Origin: Arthrobacter bambusae
GTDB lineage: Bacteria > Actinomycetota > Actinomycetes > Actinomycetales > Micrococcaceae
Assembly: GCF_030812595.1 (NCBI RefSeq)
Contig: NZ_JAUSSZ010000003.1
Span: forward strand, 62,001-126,000
Length of the DNA stretch: 64,000 bases
Reading direction: 5' to 3'
The number at the start of each line of letters is the position of its first letter. Within the stretch, counting starts at the first letter, position 1. Made by a program: the position numbers and the translations under genes. The notes beneath the pieces are model-generated. The model saw only the letters and a program-made list of their open reading frames with translations, ran no database searches and had not been told where the DNA came from. Of the stretch, positions 8,448 through 58,668 are shown one piece after another.

Positions 8448-9506
8448 TTACTCCAGTGGCAGAATCTCCCCAAGGTCGTAATCGGCCGGCTCTTCCAGTT
8501 GGGCGTATGTGCAGCTTTCCGGATCCCGGTCCGGCCGCCAACGCCTGAACTGGGTGGTGTGCCGGAACCGATCGCCTTCCATGTAGTCGTAGGCCACCTC
8601 GATCACGAGTTCGGGACGCAGCGGCTCAAAAGACAGGTCCTTTCCGCCGCTCCAACGGCTCACTGCGCCCGGCATCCTGGAACCTGCCCCGGCGGGATCG
8701 GCCCAACTGCCCCACGGATGCTCGCTCAGCTCGGCGCGGTAGGGCTCAAGTTCAGCCACCAAGCTCTCGCGGCGCGCCATCGGAAACGACGCCACGACGC
8801 CCACGTGTTGCAGGCGCCCTGCACCGTCGTACAGCCCGAGCAGCAGCGACCCGATAACCTTGGCGGTTTTGTGCCAGCGGAAACCTGCCACGACGCAGTC
8901 TGCGGTGCGTTCGTGCTTGGTCTTGAACATAGTTCGCTTGCCGGGCTGATAAAGGCCATCGAGGGGCTTCGAAACGACGCCATCGAGCCCCGCGCCTTCG
9001 AGAAGGGCGAACCAATCCTGCGCCTTGCCGAGGTCCGTCACAGCCGGAGTGATGAAGACCGGATCCGACGCCGCTTCAAGCGCATCCTCGAGCGTTGCGC
9101 GCCGTTCCGCGAAGGGCCGGTCCATCAGGTTGTCCTGCCCCAACGCGAGGATGTCGAAAGCGATCAACGATGCCGGACTCTGCTCAGCGAGCATCCGCAC
9201 CCGGCTGTCAGCGGGGTGTATCCGCTGCTGGAGTCCTTCGAAGTCCAGCCGGTTCTCCGCAATAAGGACGATCTCCCCGTCGATCACGCACTTTTCCGGA
9301 AGGTTCTTCCTTAATGCGTCCACGAGTTCGGGAAAATACCGGGTCATGGGCCGTTCGTTGCGGCTGCCGAGGATGATCTCGTCTCCATCTTTGAAAACGA
9401 TCGTCCTGAACCCGTCCCATTTGGGCTCGAAATGCCCCACATCGGGAATTGTCGGAACAGCTTTGGAGAGCATGGGCGTGATCGGAGGCATCACTGGCAG
9501 GTCCAT
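8448..9506 (-). CDS. ligC: ATP-dependent DNA ligase, LigC type
   Basis: Stand-alone ATP-dependent DNA ligase of 352 residues. Nucleotidyltransferase motif I is EPKWDGFR, with the adenylated lysine about residue 30, and SRNERPMTRYFPEL, DGEIVL and EGAGLDGVVSKPL supply the later motifs. The OB-fold half ends FRHTTQFRRWRPDRDPESCTY. The whole protein tracks mycobacterial LigC (opening LPVMPPITPMLSKAVP). No polymerase or nuclease domain is fused, so this is not LigD. In mycobacteria LigC is a back-up ligase, linked to repair and dispensable. I chose ATG 9506 over GTG 9533 because it matches that N-terminus. Neither Ku nor a LigD polymerase gene is nearby. Confidence 0.92.
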   Translation of the reverse strand: MDLPVMPPITPMLSKAVPTIPDVGHFEPKWDGFRTIVFKDGDEIILGSRNERPMTRYFPELVDALRKNLPEKCVIDGEIVLIAENRLDFEGLQQRIHPADSRVRMLAEQSPASLIAFDILALGQDNLMDRPFAERRATLEDALEAASDPVFITPAVTDLGKAQDWFALLEGAGLDGVVSKPLDGLYQPGKRTMFKTKHERTADCVVAGFRWHKTAKVIGSLLLGLYDGAGRLQHVGVVASFPMARRESLVAELEPYRAELSEHPWGSWADPAGAGSRMPGAVSRWSGGKDLSFEPLRPELVIEVAYDYMEGDRFRHTTQFRRWRPDRDPESCTYAQLEEPADYDLGEILPLE

Positions 9507-9649
9507 AGGACCGGTTCTACCAACAGATGACACCTCGAAGCTAGCGCCCGTTATTCAAATGTGACTTTAGACGACCGCTGTTGTAACGTCGAGGGGCGAC
9601 CCAGTCCCCAGCCGGGCCGCTTCCGAGTTGACGCCGAGCTCTGCCGCAA

Positions 9650-9793
9650 CCCGGAATCCGCTAGATCCGCGGCAGAGACGGGGGACCCAGAGTCTCCGGG
9701 CCTCCTTTTCCACAGGCCCTTGGGGTGAAGCCGCCTTGTGCGGCCGGACGGCCTCGTCCGAACCCGACAGCTAACCTCGAAGGCGTTGAGAGG
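9650..9793 (+). ncRNA. c-di-AMP riboswitch (ydaO-yuaA class)
   Basis: The 5' leader of the gene at 9802 carries the conserved blocks of the ydaO class in the right order: CCGCTAGATC at 9658, GGGGGACCCA at 9680-9689, GGGGTGAAG at 9722, then TCCGAACCCGACAGCTAACC at 9757-9776 and CGAAGGCG closing at about 9785. CGCT (9659-9662) can pair with GGCG (9782-9785) to close the outer helix. The class binds cyclic di-AMP and normally switches expression off when c-di-AMP is high; in actinobacteria it usually precedes wall-remodelling genes. The motif ends only about ten bases before the start codon, so control of translation initiation or of termination just ahead of it are both possible. Confidence 0.9.
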
Positions 9794-9801
9794 CAATCAC
9801 C

Positions 9802-10827
9802 ATGTCCCCAACCATGGATCGGCCTCGCCGTGCCCAAGTGGCGCGCGAGGGTACCAAACCAACCGGACGTCGTCGCGCCAAAGACGGCGGAACGTTTATC
9901 GCTGTACCGGCAACTGAGTCCTTGAGTTCGACGGCGGAGCCCACGACGGCGGCCCCTTCCGCCACGGCAACCCCGGCGACGGCGGCGCCCACCACGCGGG
10001 CGGCCGCACGAGCTGCCGAACGCGCTGCCGAACAGAAGCGAGCTTCCCAAGCCAGCGAAACCGCGGCCATTCCGACAGTGGCTCCTGCAACAGAGGCCCC
10101 TGCAACAGTGGCTCCCGCGATACCCGCACCTCCCACCGCCGTGGGTCCAGCGTCCTCTGCGGGTTCCTCGTTCAGCCGTGAACCGCACACCGTCCTCAAG
10201 AAGGCCGCCAGCATCAAGACGATGAGCAACCGCATGGCCGTGGTTGCAGGAGCCCTAGGCATCTTGTTGACCGCCGGTTCCCTTGGCCACGCGCTTGAGT
10301 TGCCCTTCTTTGGCCAGGAATCCCGCGCCCAAGACACCAGCAGCGCGGACAACCAGGGCGCCACGCCGTCCGGCGCTTCCTCCATGACGGCAAGCATTTC
10401 CCCCAGCCCCGCAGCTTCGCCCTCGGCAGCTGCCCCCAGCGCGAAGGCCGGACAGACCGGCGCGGACCCGGCGCAGGTTTCGCCGCAAGGACCCGCCGTC
10501 CTCCAGCCGTCGAGCGCACCGGCCCCCTCGATCTCCGTCCGGGTTCCGGCCGCAATCCCGTCAGCACTGCCCCCGAGCCTCACTCCGGCGCCTGTTCCTT
10601 CCATTCCGGTGCCGGCACAACCTGCTCCGGCTCCCAGCCCTGTTCCGACCGGGCCGGCGACTTCGGACCCGGCTCCGGATCCCACGGGGCCGGCGTCTCC
10701 GACGCCCGCGCCCACCGGTTCCTGGAAGCCGCGGACCCCGGCCAACCCCTCCCCTACACCGCAACCCACCCAACCCGGAGTTGATCTGGGATCGGTCTTG
10801 GACACAGCAACCAAGGCCTTGCAGTGA
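9802..10827 (+). CDS. riboswitch-controlled Ala/Pro-rich membrane protein, no known enzymatic domain
   Basis: 341 residues. An Arg-rich, Ala/Thr/Pro-rich N-terminal half (1-142) is probably cytoplasmic and disordered. One membrane helix at about 145-163 (MAVVAGALGILLTAGSLGHA) follows, then an extracytoplasmic Pro/Ala/Ser-rich tail ending VDLGSVLDTATKALQ. No LysM, NlpC/P60, transglycosylase or Rpf domain is visible. Its leader is a c-di-AMP riboswitch, which in actinobacteria normally controls cell-wall hydrolases or resuscitation factors, so a role in the envelope is inferred. It could be a wall-spanning spacer or a relic that has lost its catalytic domain. No frameshifted hydrolase remnant is evident in the 177 bases downstream. 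Confidence 0.8.
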   Translation: MSPTMDRPRRAQVAREGTKPTGRRRAKDGGTFIAVPATESLSSTAEPTTAAPSATATPATAAPTTRAAARAAERAAEQKRASQASETAAIPTVAPATEAPATVAPAIPAPPTAVGPASSAGSSFSREPHTVLKKAASIKTMSNRMAVVAGALGILLTAGSLGHALELPFFGQESRAQDTSSADNQGATPSGASSMTASISPSPAASPSAAAPSAKAGQTGADPAQVSPQGPAVLQPSSAPAPSISVRVPAAIPSALPPSLTPAPVPSIPVPAQPAPAPSPVPTGPATSDPAPDPTGPASPTPAPTGSWKPRTPANPSPTPQPTQPGVDLGSVLDTATKALQ

Positions 10828-11004
10828 GGATGGGAGAGCATCGAACATTCGCGGTCGAGTGGCACGGGCGCTGCTGCCGGCATACCCGGACGCAGACGAT
10901 TCAACACCGCCCGGACCGGTGGCGCTGCAGTATTCAGCTGAGGCAGTTCAACAGGTAGGCCAGCGTCACCAATCAGGCCCGGGCAGCCTCCGTTGCCTGC
11001 GCCG

Positions 11005-12219
11005 TCAAATCCGCGGGCGTCCGGCCCAGCGGCGGGCTTTGAGGGTTGCATGGAGTTCGAGCCGGGTGGCGCCATTCAGCGGATCTGCCCCGATGAGCTG
11101 GCGGACCCTGGCCAGCCGGTTGTAGATGCTGCTCCGGTGCAAGTGGAGCTTCGCAGCCACGTCCTGCACGGAGCCGTCACTGTCGTAGAGCAGCTCAAGC
11201 ACGGGAAGCAGCTCGCCGTTGCGGTCCGCGTCCTCGATCGCTTGGAAATGCACCGAGCCTGAATCGTCCCAGCCGCCGGGCGCCTGAAGCCGTTCGAACA
11301 ACTGGTAGATTCCCGCGGAGCGACTGTCTACGAGCTCGCCGAGCGGAGGATCGACGGCAGCGGCCTGGGCGGCGATCTTCGATTGCCGGTACGCCCGGCC
11401 AAGTTGGCGGATGACTGAAAACGGCTCGCTGATGCCCAGAATGACGCGGTCCACCTTCCGGCCTGCGCGCTTGGCGAGTTCCAGCTGATAATGGACCAGG
11501 ACTTGGGCATGTTCTGCCCTGCCGCCGGTTTCCCGGAATAACAGGACCGAGTGGGTCTCGGTGCCGGCGCTGAAAAGCACGGAATCGACCCCGATGGTGG
11601 CCTGCAGCGCGGCGGAACGGTGCGTCAGTGTTGCCGCGATCGGATCCGAGACCCCGCCACTGTCCTCTGCGTCGAGCACGGTAACCAGCTGCCAGGGTCC
11701 CCGGCCCTGGATCTCCTTCCATCCCGCGACGGCGGCCACGGCGTTGGACTCGCCCTGGCATGCAGCGAGGAACTCCTGCTCGCGGCGGCGCCGGAACTCC
11801 GACTCGGCAGTATTGGAATCGAGCAGCAATCCCGCGAGGAGGTCCAGCTCGTCCCGGACGGCCGGCAACTCGGCGAGGATCGCCGTCGCCGTCTGCTCGT
11901 CAAGGTCCTGCTGGACCCAGAGGTATCCGACGCGGAATCCGCGCACCAGCAACGGGACGCAGACGCGTCCCACCATCCCGAGTTCCTCGTTGGCGGGCAC
12001 GACGACGGGACGCACCGCGGTGGCAATCCCGTGCGAGAGCTGCCATGCACTGACATCCACAGGAACCCGTTTGCTCAAGAGGAAATTCACGCGCACACGG
12101 TCGGCGTGGGACTGGTTGGAACTGTAGGCGAGCAGCACGCCGTCGAGGTCTTCCAGGGAGAGCCCGCGGCCAAGCTTTAGTGCGACGTCCTCGACGATTT
12201 TCTCCACGTCCTGCTGCAT
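11005..12219 (-). CDS. PucR-family transcriptional regulator, divergent from ald
   Basis: About 404 residues: an N-terminal sensory region (SLEDLDGVLLAYSSNQSHAD), a central GGDEF-like/CdaR-type linker (about 170-320), and a C-terminal PucR HTH (VQDVAAKLHLHRSSIYNRLARVRQLIG). The family activates amino-acid, purine or proline catabolic genes. It stands divergently to alanine dehydrogenase, 220 bases apart, so it probably controls ald, as PucR-type AdeR does in Bacillus (family knowledge). I favour ATG 12219 (MQQDVEKIVEDV); an in-frame ATG at 12249 would add ten residues. Neither has a strong Shine-Dalgarno sequence. Confidence 0.85.
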   Translation of the reverse strand: MQQDVEKIVEDVALKLGRGLSLEDLDGVLLAYSSNQSHADRVRVNFLLSKRVPVDVSAWQLSHGIATAVRPVVVPANEELGMVGRVCVPLLVRGFRVGYLWVQQDLDEQTATAILAELPAVRDELDLLAGLLLDSNTAESEFRRRREQEFLAACQGESNAVAAVAGWKEIQGRGPWQLVTVLDAEDSGGVSDPIAATLTHRSAALQATIGVDSVLFSAGTETHSVLLFRETGGRAEHAQVLVHYQLELAKRAGRKVDRVILGISEPFSVIRQLGRAYRQSKIAAQAAAVDPPLGELVDSRSAGIYQLFERLQAPGGWDDSGSVHFQAIEDADRNGELLPVLELLYDSDGSVQDVAAKLHLHRSSIYNRLARVRQLIGADPLNGATRLELHATLKARRWAGRPRI

Positions 12220-13697: not shown

Positions 13698-14426
13698 TTA
13701 AGGCTTGACCGGGCTGCCCGGGAGCAGATCTGACGGGACCGACTGCGGCAAGGTGATTCCGGGGCTTGGGATCGTCGGCGTCGGGATGGTGACAGGCGCA
13801 GGCTTGCCTTTGGCGATGTCCGGCAATCCCTTGCTCGGGTCCGCCTGCGAACCGGCACTATCGGGACCAGGAGTCGCCCGCGGCGTGGACGGCTCGCCGT
13901 TAACCGCTGCGTCAGGGCTGGTATGGGCCGGCGTCGGTTGTACCGGCAGGCCGGCGTCGTGGCTCGGGAGCCGGTCCGGCGTCGGGAGTGTTCCCTGCTG
14001 CTGCGGCGCGTTCCCACCGGATCCGGGGGCAAACTTTGAGACGACGGATCCCACCGCGGCACCCAAGTGCTCGATCGTGCCGGGGATGCCGCCGTTGGAC
14101 GCTGCTGCTGCTGTGGCCCCGGCGGCAAGTGACGCTGCCACCGCGAGGGTGGCAATGCCTGCACGGCGCTTACGACGACGGCGGGCGGCCAGTTCATCGA
14201 AAGGCTCGGCAGGGCTTTCGGCCGTGTCCGTTTCGACCGTGGGCGCCATCGCCACGCGGGCGGGCGCCATCAAGGCCTGCACAGCCGCCGATGGCTGCGG
14301 CCGGGTGCCCGCGAGGGCGCGCAGCTCCAGCAGCTCGGCCCGGATCTCGTACGCTTCGTCGAGGCCGGCCTCAGCAAGCAGACGGTCAATGCCCTGCTCT
14401 CCGCGGGATGCGGATTTTTCGCTCAT
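13698..14426 (-). CDS. putative membrane anti-sigma factor, coupled to the ECF sigma gene
   Basis: 242 residues. The first 85 are cytoplasmic and helical (GIDRLLAEAGLDEAYEIRAE), followed by a basic stop RRRRKRR, one membrane helix (about 90-110) and a Pro/Gly-rich extracytoplasmic tail. There is no His/Cys zinc anti-sigma motif, so it is not a ZAS protein. Its ATG overlaps the sigma-factor TGA by four bases (ATGA), a coupling typical of sigma/anti-sigma pairs. The anti-sigma role is inferred from topology and coupling, not from a recognised domain. Confidence 0.7.
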   Translation of the reverse strand: MSEKSASRGEQGIDRLLAEAGLDEAYEIRAELLELRALAGTRPQPSAAVQALMAPARVAMAPTVETDTAESPAEPFDELAARRRRKRRAGIATLAVAASLAAGATAAAASNGGIPGTIEHLGAAVGSVVSKFAPGSGGNAPQQQGTLPTPDRLPSHDAGLPVQPTPAHTSPDAAVNGEPSTPRATPGPDSAGSQADPSKGLPDIAKGKPAPVTIPTPTIPSPGITLPQSVPSDLLPGSPVKP

Positions 14427-15010
14427 GATGTGCCATTCCTTAGTAGTGCACGTTCTCTCAGTGCACTCAATGCCCTGCGCTGCAATTGCTTCACGGCCCC
14501 TTGGGACTTGCCCATGATGTCCGCTGTTTCTTCCACTGACAGGTCCGCCACGACCCGTAGTGCCAGGACCTCCCGGTAGTCGGGGTTGAGGTCGGCCAGT
14601 AACTCGGTTACGCCCAGGCCTTCCCCATGCCCGAATGCCTGCTCCTCGGCTGAAGGCGTGCGTCGAGAATCCAGGTCGGATTCGTAGGGCGCGGAATCAG
14701 GTGTGCGCTCCCGCTTGCGGTAGTGGTCCACCATTCGGGCGTGCGCTATGGAGAAGAGGAGGCTCTTGGCCCCCTGGAGACCTCCGCGGAGGGATTCCAG
14801 TTTGGGATAGAGAGCCAGGAACACGTCCTGGGTCACTGCTTCCGGATCGTCTACGCCGCGGGCGCGTAGGTATCCAAATACCGGTCCGGAGAACTCGTTG
14901 TAGGCAGCTGTGAAGAGCAGGGCGGGATCCTGCTCTTCCGCCTGCAAATATTCATCAGCCACAGGGTCAAGCACCCGCGACCCCTCCATCCCACGCAGCG
15001 CGGTGGTCAT
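14423..15010 (-). CDS. ECF-type RNA polymerase sigma factor
   Basis: 195-residue extracytoplasmic-function sigma factor with region 2 (about 32-100: YNEFSGPVFGYLRARGV, AHARMVDHYRKRER) and region 4 (about 135-190: LNPDYREVLALRVVADLSVEE, DIMGKSQGAVKQLQRRALSAL) and no sigma-1.1 or sigma-3. An extension of about 30 residues precedes region 2; ATG at 14989 (MEGSRVL) is an alternative start. It is translationally coupled to the downstream membrane protein. Stimulus and promoter consensus cannot be read from the sequence. Confidence 0.9.
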   Translation of the reverse strand: MTTALRGMEGSRVLDPVADEYLQAEEQDPALLFTAAYNEFSGPVFGYLRARGVDDPEAVTQDVFLALYPKLESLRGGLQGAKSLLFSIAHARMVDHYRKRERTPDSAPYESDLDSRRTPSAEEQAFGHGEGLGVTELLADLNPDYREVLALRVVADLSVEETADIMGKSQGAVKQLQRRALSALRERALLRNGTS

Positions 15011-15117: not shown

Positions 15118-15804
15118 TTACGGGGTGACGGAATCGGACGGCACGTGCACAGGTACGGTCGGCACCTGGGAAGGGACGGCCGGAACAGTGGGGACAGCCG
15201 GGACGGACGGCACGGCAGGCGTAGCGGGGACAGCCGGCACAGCAGGCGTAGCGGGCAGTGCGGCGGTTCCGTCAGCGTTGGCGTTGGCGTTGGCGGAAGC
15301 GGACCCGTCAGCCTTCAGGCCGACGGCCTTGCCTTCGGTCACCACGGTTGCGCAGTGTGCGTTGACGTTGGCTTCGCCGCCAGCGGCAACAACCAGCGAG
15401 GAGTAACCGGGCACCTTGGCGTCGCCCTTCAGGCCACCGTTGAGGAGAGCGGTGCAGAGGCCGAACGCCTCAGGCGAGGTGGCCTTGGCAGAAGCGGCTG
15501 CTGCGGTGGCCTTCGACTTTGCGTCGTCGACAGCGTCCGTGGCCTTGGACTTCGCGTCGGCCACGGCGTCCGTGGCCTTGGACGTCGCCATCTGGGACGC
15601 GCCAGCCGTCTTGGACAGTGCGGACTCGGCTGCTTTGGACGCTACCGGGGCCGGGGCGCCGAGCAGCTCGTGGGCGCTCTTCTGCAAATCATTGGGGAGT
15701 GCTCCGTTGAAGGCTGCGACGCCGGTTCCGCCAACCGCTACAGCTCCGGCGGCAAGGGCGCCGGCGGCGATTTTGCTGGTGGCAAGGACAGTGAACAAGG
15801 ACAT
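15118..15804 (-). CDS. exported Ala-rich protein with internal repeats
   Basis: 228 residues. An N-terminal hydrophobic segment (9-31, Ala/Gly/Val) resembles an uncleaved anchor or signal peptide. Residues 76-107 hold three copies of an 11-residue helical repeat (SKATDAVADAK, SKATDAVDDAK, SKATAAAASAK). A compact domain with two cysteines (Cys117, Cys151) follows, then a C-terminal run of PAVP/TVP repeats likely to span the cell wall. Function unknown. Its position beside an ECF sigma/anti-sigma pair suggests an envelope-stress link, but a terminator hairpin separates them. Confidence 0.75.
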   Translation of the reverse strand: MSLFTVLATSKIAAGALAAGAVAVGGTGVAAFNGALPNDLQKSAHELLGAPAPVASKAAESALSKTAGASQMATSKATDAVADAKSKATDAVDDAKSKATAAAASAKATSPEAFGLCTALLNGGLKGDAKVPGYSSLVVAAGGEANVNAHCATVVTEGKAVGLKADGSASANANANADGTAALPATPAVPAVPATPAVPSVPAVPTVPAVPSQVPTVPVHVPSDSVTP

Positions 15805-57004: not shown

Positions 57005-58668
57005 TTCAGGAGTCCTTCTGCGAGGGGGCCCAAGGAAAGGGCCGGGAAGTAGCTCAAGGCGGTCATGATCACCGTCACGCCGAGCAAGAGGGAACCGAAG
57101 AGCCAGCCGTGGGTGGGGACGGTTCCGGATGACGCCGGGATCCGGGGTTGTTTTGCGAGGGAACCCGCCAAGGCGAGCACCAGCACGATGGGCAGATAGC
57201 GGCCAAGGAGCATGGCGAGGCTCATCATGATGGACAAATATGGACCGGACGTGGTGATACCGCCGAACGCCGAGCCGTTGTTGTTGGCTCCGGAGGTGAA
57301 GGCGTAGAGCACTTCGCTGAATTGGTGCGGGCCGGACGCTGGTGCGTTAGCCATGGCGTCCGGCAGCAGGACTGTGATTCCAGCCGTGGCAAGCACCACC
57401 ACCGGCGTCACCAGGATGTACATCGCGGTGAGCTTCATCTCCCGGGGTCCGATCTTCTTTCCCAGGAACTCAGGAGTGCGGCCCACCATGAGCCCGGCGA
57501 TGAACACGGAGACAATCGCGAGGATCAGCAGGCCATAGAGCCCTGATCCCGTGCCTCCCGGGGCCACTTCTCCGAGCATCATGTTCACCATGGCGACACC
57601 GCCGGCCAGGGGCGGCAGGGAATCGTGGGCGACGTTAATGGCACCCGTGGAAGTCAGCGTGGTGGCAGTGGCAAAAATCGAGCTTTGGGCCGCGCCAAAG
57701 CGTTGCTCGAAGCCCTCACCAAGACCTCCCGCAGCGGCGGTCGCTGTTCCTTCGGCGGAGGCAACAGCCCAGCCCATCAGCATGGTGGATGTCAGCCAGA
57801 GCGTGCCCATGACACCCACTACCGTGTAACCCTGCCGCTGATCCCCCACCATGCGGCCATAGGCGTACGGCAACGCGGAAGGAATGAGCAGGATCAGGAA
57901 GACCTGGAACAGGCTGATGAAGACGTTCGGGTTCTCGAACGGGTGCGCGGAATTGGCGTTGAAATAGCCGCCGCCGTTCGTGCCCAGGATTTTGATTGCT
58001 TCCTGGGAGGCTACGGGCCCACCCGGGATGGTCTGGGTGACGCCGGTTGCCTGGTTGAGGACCTCGGTCGACCAAAAATTCTGCACTACCCCGCCGATGA
58101 CCATGACGATCGCCGCGAGCGCAGCCATGGGCAGCAGTACGCGGAACGAGGTGCGGGCAAGGTCCACCCAGAAGTTCCCCAGCCTGTCCGTCTTGGTTCG
58201 CGCGATGCCACGGATCAGGGCGACCACCACCACGATTCCGACGGCGGCGGAGAGGAAGTTCTGCACGGCCAGTAAGCACATCTGCGCGAAAACGCCCATG
58301 GTGGCCTCGGGCGTGTACGTTTGCCAGTTGGTGTTCGTGGCAAAGGAAATGGCCGTGTTCATGGCCGTCCAAGGGTCCACGCCGGGGAGGGAATTGTTCC
58401 CCGGCAGGACGCCTTGAAGCCGCTGCAGGAGGAACACCACCAGGATGGAGACAGCGGAGAACACCAAGACGCTGCGCAAATAGATGGACCAGCTCTGCTC
58501 GGTGCCCGGATCCACCCCGGCCAGGCGGTAAAACCATCGTTCCACGCGGGTGGACTTCTTGCCCTCAAAGACCCGGGCGAGGTACACGCCCAGCGGCTTG
58601 TGAACCAAGACCAGCAGCAAGAGCAGGATCGCCACCTGGGTGACGAAAGAGGCAATACTGAAAACCAT
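57001..58668 (-). CDS. kdpA: KdpA, potassium channel-like subunit
   Basis: 555-residue membrane protein, ten helices, containing the four pore-loop repeats of the superfamily of K+ transporters ([40 protein letters not shown]). It binds and translocates K+. GTGT/ATG region: ATG 58668, six bases after the kdpF stop. First large gene of the operon. Confidence 0.97.

Follow-up and report, generated by a model that had tools for sequence, protein, structure and literature searches.

Nearly all targets of actinobacterial c-di-AMP riboswitches are described as cell-wall genes (PMC9960051, citing Nelson 2013), and two of these switches are described as lowering expression: that of C. glutamicum nlpC, likely at the level of translation (PMC9960051), and that of Streptomyces rpfA, via transcription termination (PMC10117811). 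The B. subtilis prototype has a terminator as its expression platform. Degenerate wall hydrolases of the EnvC/NlpD type regulate active ones. Among open-licence PMC papers, we found none joining ydaO or a c-di-AMP riboswitch with Arthrobacter, and among the titles listed by broader searches none concerned a protein of the kind described here. We analysed a 64-kb stretch of the Arthrobacter bambusae genome (the window, taken at its full length) in which a riboswitch of this class precedes a gene whose product, unlike those of rpfA and nlpC, has no hydrolase domain. The switch is ordinary, its target is unusual and the finding is sound; the reading that we favour, and hold to be reasonably probable, is that the gene under this genuine riboswitch encodes a paralogue of a wall-hydrolase-like protein, one that is old, has no domain and is still under selection.

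The riboswitch was identified with cmscan, which over the whole window returned a single Rfam match at the gathering threshold: a c-di-AMP (ydaO/yuaA) aptamer, RF00379, at positions 9649–9799 of the plus strand, as are all features of the locus given below (69.2 bits versus a gathering score of 38, E = 5.7e-14, model positions 1–134 complete). A preliminary description had proposed a ydaO-class switch here from conserved blocks, all of which are present, and a scan of the organism's own genome (assembly 4.28 Mb) recovered the aptamer again at G000:C3:71649-71799. As at S. coelicolor rpfA and C. glutamicum nlpC, the match is full length and lies just before the gene, whose ATG (9802) stands 2 nt past the end of the model match and 16 nt past the outer closing helix; the earlier placement of the start within ten bases thus holds from the first of these points and fails from the second. 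On the 5′ side of the aptamer, an inverted repeat read from the sequence (CTCTGCCGC / GCGGCAGAG, 9639–9677) has arms that are largely kept in 27 orthologues and paired in all five MFE folds inspected. RF00379 precedes the gene in 9/9 family loci, and the aptamer core GACAGCTAACCTCG ends 21–22 nt ahead of the start in 30/30 loci (drawn from the named records and the family survey, several of them the same genomes as in the genus set).

The leader also carries a Shine-Dalgarno-like GAGAGG (9788–9793), 2 nt past the outer aptamer helix GGCG (9782–9785), which was seen by eye in all 45 leaders compared (27 window-type, 7 sister-type and 11 intact-type, the types being described below). A simple consensus scan of positions 9300–11100, which is weak evidence, found no terminator-like site (0 versus 1.4 in shuffles); the leader thereby differs from the B. 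subtilis prototype and resembles rpfA and nlpC as these are described in PMC9960051. Translational control fits because no terminator-like site was found by this weak test and because the aptamer ends two bases before the Shine-Dalgarno sequence. A CCUC on the 3′ side of the aptamer can pair with the GAGG of that sequence, which alone would argue for an ON switch. By analogy with the nlpC switch, c-di-AMP most likely represses translation of the window gene, and a diadenylate cyclase domain is encoded in the same genome (PF02457, E = 8.2e-27).

The reading frame behind the riboswitch (9802–10827) encodes a 341-aa, Ala/Pro/Thr-rich protein of predicted single-pass topology. Pfam and NCBIfam gave no match to it at E ≤ 1, and Pfam gave none to 22 orthologues at E ≤ 0.1; the catalytic domains of riboswitch-led wall hydrolases and Rpf proteins (M23, NlpC/P60, SLT, Rpf) are absent, and zero families claimed the protein, including NF052397 at its cut-off of 40 bits. 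The earlier account of a one-helix protein without a wall-hydrolase domain is therefore borne out, since there is a single hydrophobic segment (hydropathy peak at residues 147–165) and no Pfam or NCBIfam domain. The segment overlaps a predicted helix that we assign as the membrane anchor (residues 129–164, 10186–10293), and its N side has a net charge of +9. Ahead of it, the AlphaFold2 model, of low confidence overall (mean pLDDT 50.1; 68 and 79 in residues 61–80), predicts a cytoplasmic helix at residues 66–84 (RAAARAAER..., 9997–10053), in which or near which P63, T65, R66, A67, R70, A71, E73 and R74 are invariant in 22 orthologues. Beyond the anchor, a Pro/Ser/Thr/Ala-rich linker (residues 173–325, 10318–10776), placed outside the cytoplasm by its charge context, has low pLDDT and no predicted secondary structure. 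A conserved C-terminal helix (residues 329–341, LGSVLDTATKALQ, 10786–10824; predicted helix 329–340, pLDDT 80 in residues 331–340) is the sole structure that the low-confidence model predicts after the anchor, and it occupies the place of the lysozyme-like domain of the relatives. By its predicted topology, the product would be an envelope protein.

Two other parts of the window bear on its surroundings. The preliminary description had connected the riboswitch with potassium through a kdp system; KdpA is indeed encoded at 57010–58629 on the minus strand (converted from G000:C3:119010-120629), and the proposed c-di-AMP/potassium link is not supported, the aptamer at 9649–9799 being the sole riboswitch found in the window, with none found near KdpA. 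Closer to the locus, a sigma-factor-like ORF, 14423–15010 (−), stands beside two Ala/Pro-rich ORFs, 13698–14426 and 15118–15804 (−), whose make-up resembles that of the window protein by eye.

A profile built from 22 orthologues detected the gene in 28/121 genus genomes, its own included (E < 1e-70), and in 4/197 family genomes, all of them of this genus (1/32 genera). The 27 named records with an orthologue belong to Arthrobacter and Paenarthrobacter, among them P. aurescens TC1 (L115). A PucR-type regulator gene lies downstream at 26/27 window-type loci; at the exceptional locus, L031, just the ligase gene of the opposite flank was detected. At one locus, L106 (Arthrobacter sp. Hiyo8), the window-type gene has a deviant C-terminus, which may reflect a frameshift, an assembly error or a real change.

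We read the window gene as encoding a real, selected protein under purifying selection. Among 9 close orthologues dN/dS was 0.24 overall, 0.13 in the anchor region (residues 128–172), 0.15 in the C-terminal residues 326–341 and 0.25 in the linker; across 22 orthologues, 50 columns are invariant. Were the gene instead a decaying lysozyme-like remnant, visible only through its conserved riboswitch, one might expect the free variation in length that its low-complexity parts display, the visible decay of two sister-type genes (G111 and G063) and the dN/dS of 0.56 in the first 31 codons, a value that arises because dS is merely 0.15 there. Against such decay, the full reading frame has been kept in 28 genomes within a shared neighbourhood, the leader and long ORF recur at 30/30 loci, 29 of them with the usual C-terminus, and the low dN/dS values and invariant columns lie in the protein itself; we regard a dying gene as highly improbable. 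Retention of the domain-less protein in many related species suggests a non-enzymatic job in the envelope, and the earlier proposal of an unrecognised c-di-AMP-regulated envelope protein fits this conservation, with 'envelope' taken from the predicted topology.

The same genome places three further genes under RF00379 switches, four in all counting that of the window gene: a 247-aa lysozyme-like gene, an M23 peptidase (PF01551, E = 6.3e-33) and an NlpC/P60 peptidase (PF00877, E = 3.8e-12). RF00379 was found in 121/121 genus genomes, in 3–9 copies, with 2 in one 63%-complete assembly. In the A. bambusae genome, the M23 and NlpC/P60 genes lie in tandem, led by two riboswitches about 1 kb apart (L002 / G000:C2:158727-160070), and the M23 gene there has a TTG start as read. 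At five other loci of the genus (L027, L033, L037, L044 and L048), a riboswitch-led gene has a glucanase-like C-terminal sequence, and the one of these that was scanned matched PF00722 (GH16).

A paralogue of the window protein in its own genome is the 247-aa product, which carries the SLT/lysozyme-like AggPromo_Cterm domain, named for its likeness to the C-terminus of aggregation-promoting factor (NF052397, E = 8.8e-34, 115.8 bits versus a cut-off of 40). The window protein finds this paralogue at E = 4.8e-5, over anchor and linker, and this match, together with an anchor tree of few columns, places the two in common descent outside the domain. Like AggPromo_Cterm proteins, the window protein has the leader, a basic N-terminus, a related anchor and a low-complexity linker; unlike them, it lacks the domain, has a longer part before the anchor and ends in a short helix instead. 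The pre-anchor part measures 119–277 aa in 28 window-type proteins, 126–181 in 7 of the sister type and 29–50 in 15 of the intact type. The motif T[AE]A[ILV]P, picked after viewing the alignment and with a shuffled expectation before the anchor of 0.022 per window-type protein, occurs there in at least one copy in 26/28 window-type, 3/7 sister-type and 0/15 intact-type proteins, and after the anchor in 1/28, 0/7 and 0/15, respectively. A kinase/FHA role would be a conceivable but speculative reading. A domain profile detected the intact domain in 119/121 genus genomes, among them every one of the 28 that have a window-type gene; because each of these 28 also holds an intact-domain gene, the window gene is an extra, non-enzymatic member of the regulon.

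The label 'lysozyme-like' rests on NF052397 and on weak Pfam matches, which among 10 members were to SLT in 8 and Phage_lysozyme2 in 7 (best E = 1.4e-5 and 4.7e-5) and fell below cut-off in the one member examined in full. Foldseek returned no match to the intact domain at E ≤ 0.001, the AlphaFold2 model of the paralogue being poor (mean pLDDT 57.4). Profile matches to solved structures (9/10 to WD40 or designed propellers and one to a receptor at E = 0.2) were discarded as artefacts, and the two propeller matches examined in full consisted of many weak matches to repeats. A further paralogue with an intact domain was seen at L136 (G016), L137 (G103), L138 (G100) and L092 (G112), in frames of 440–524 aa with a long Ala/Glu/Gln-rich middle; cmscan of these four loci found no same-strand riboswitch ahead of it.

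Between the intact and the domain-less form stands a sister type, present in 8/121 genomes, none of which has the window type, and marked in most by ELPFFGKE in the anchor region. Its domain is abridged in 6/8, with 33 residues out of the middle (in G075 according to visual inspection of fragments at the ends of two contigs), and lost in 2/8. Presumably, the stretch lost from the domain would hold the SLT 'ES' and 'GLMQ'-like motifs. The four abridged genes scanned, of six, scored 29.0–32.7 bits on NF052397, below its 40-bit cut-off, and the G063, G111 and window proteins gave no match to it. The G063 frame (L134) stops, as judged by eye, within the domain's first helix. In G111 (L135), the domain is missing from the protein, and DNA resembling the end of the linker and the initial ~25 domain codons persists out of frame (197 nt at 69% identity to G004, E = 5e-15, without low-complexity filtering). 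G124 holds two copies in tandem, one abridged and one intact; each has its own riboswitch, and the pair lies beside what appears by eye to be a kinase gene. A kinase gene related to it (75% identity) stands ahead of the intact copy in the A. bambusae genome. Together, the relatives span a graded series in which the domain runs from intact through abridged and frameshifted to absent.

At the window-type loci, no trace of the domain was detected: the lysozyme-like domain profile found nothing in 30/30 loci, and a search with filters off, in three forward frames from −150 to +500 nt around the coding end, revealed no remnant at the stop or beyond it in 27/27 genes and no match better than E = 3.1. 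This profile search is blunt, the G111 remnant that DNA alignment reveals having given merely E = 3.4. A fresh frameshift in the window gene was rejected, since the domain-less form is common to 28/121 genomes; the loss is old because the domain is missing in the whole orthologue group. The preliminary description had left the choice between an unrecognised envelope protein and a lost catalytic domain. Loss fits, the intact members of the riboswitch-led family ending in a lysozyme-like domain, and the choice falls on a paralogue of long standing that lost its domain and has been retained.

Phylogenies of the anchor and of the riboswitch, both midpoint-rooted for drawing, agree on the unity of the window type and disagree on the sister type. 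In the anchor tree, which has 72 columns, several long branches and many forks that it cannot resolve, the 28 window-type rows form one clade (support 100/99) inside a 35-row clade with the sister type (97/95). In the riboswitch tree, the window-type leaders form a clade of their own (100/98), and the sister leaders fall together with the leader of the intact tandem copy in G124 (93/85). Since window-type genes occupy another locus than sister and intact genes, a move must be assumed. Taking relatives and trees together, domain erosion after duplication is the best reading and, we consider, a very likely one. The alternative, that this line never had the lysozyme-like domain, a copy of the riboswitch and anchor module having been placed ahead of a new Pro-rich linker by fusion or shuffling, and that the sister type gained its domain, draws on the separation of window-type leaders from all others in the riboswitch tree and on the lack of a domain remnant at 27 window-type loci, a result from the profile that also missed the G111 remnant. 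We think it unlikely: presence of the intact domain is the common state across the genus (119/121 genomes), the sister domains are shortened and two of them lost, which fits loss and not gain, and the anchor region around ELPFFG[QK]E is common to window and sister types.

Unlike rpfA and nlpC, moreover, the window gene belongs to an orthologue group in which the start of the reading frame is nearly frozen. In 27 orthologues, the third positions of codons 2–4 (within codons 1–10, 9802–9831) are invariant, with a synonymous entropy of 0 bits, and a second near-invariant synonymous block covers codons 18–26 (9853–9879, TKPTGRRRA in most orthologues), where codons 20–26 have 0–0.69 bits against 1–2 bits at most other conserved codons; codons 44 and 237 are likewise low. 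The sequence ATGTCCCCAACCATGG is present in 26/27 orthologues (L045 has one change) and in 30/30 further loci, partly from the same genomes. Both blocks (codons 2–4 and 20–26, window 9802–9879) contain CCAACC. Over 20 genomes, mean entropy was 0.31 bits across the 17 columns of the first 30 codons and 1.40 across the 88 remaining columns (Mann-Whitney p = 1e-9), and in a matched control, the M23 gene that a riboswitch leads in these 20 genomes, 0.61 (13 columns) versus 1.05 (121 columns; p = 0.004); the two starts differ at p = 0.053, and all these p values are guides only, columns and genomes not being independent. Control starts at the window-type loci gave 0.98 for PucR (24 loci), 0.76 for the ligase (20) and 0.60 for AlaDH (17). 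Part of the 5′ synonymous constraint reflects selection of the kind common at gene starts; the block at codons 20–26, beyond the initiation site, may be an RNA element.

These patterns could be taken to mean that the RNA is the conserved thing, the riboswitch and the first ~26 codons forming a longer regulatory RNA to which the protein matters less. The nearly invariant third positions of codons 2–4 and 20–26 and the entropy contrast across the 20 genomes speak for this; the protein-level selection along the ORF, the milder 5′ effect in the M23 control and the AlaDH start, where 5/12 scored third positions are invariant, speak against it, and we judge it quite improbable. Folding predictions place the start codon in the stem of a hairpin, CCATG-TCCCCAAC-CATGG (9800–9817), with a loop complementary to UUGGGG in the aptamer (9720–9725) and a predicted mean unpaired probability over 27 orthologues of 0.04 for the AUG and 0.84 for codons 2–4. 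The hairpin prediction is weak evidence because the structure is largely dictated by the coding of Thr-Met-Asp. Possible pairing of the coding start with the aptamer, CCCCAA/UUGGGG and GUCGGG/CCCGAC, seen by eye, is only a lead because such 6-mers are expected by chance in G+C-rich sequence.

In the mechanism that we propose, a riboswitch and its gene would have been duplicated, after which the catalytic domain would have eroded, with the riboswitch, membrane anchor and linker being kept. Binding of c-di-AMP would be an OFF signal at the level of translation. The product would be oriented N-in/C-out: its long cytoplasmic part would lead into a single anchor, followed by a disordered linker that reaches into the wall and by a short C-terminal helix. 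It may act without catalysis, as a tether, a sensor or a modulator of the hydrolases under the same switch, namely the M23 and NlpC/P60 peptidases and the intact lysozyme-like paralogue. High c-di-AMP would shut off the window protein together with these hydrolases; at low c-di-AMP, it would be synthesized, pass through the membrane and reside in the wall, which it would not cut. As a non-catalytic relative that would act on the envelope, the window protein recalls the EnvC/NlpD type, with the difference that the whole domain is gone here instead of the active site being altered. The role itself, as tether, ruler or modulator, is a guess and holds most of the doubt. A more specific version, in which the eroded regulon member is a wall-spanning tether or sensor and an RNA element reaching ~78 nt into the ORF hides the start codon, is tentative and rather doubtful; it would combine the cytoplasmic T[AE]A[ILV]P repeats, the anchor, a linker of wall length and the C-terminal helix with a start-codon hairpin whose loop could pair with the aptamer core.

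The graded series of relatives illustrates the path from a regulated enzyme to a regulated protein without enzymatic function, and with the window protein the contribution of anchor and linker could be studied apart from the enzyme's. If a target without an enzyme is conserved under this switch, control of the wall by c-di-AMP would go beyond the cutting of peptidoglycan.
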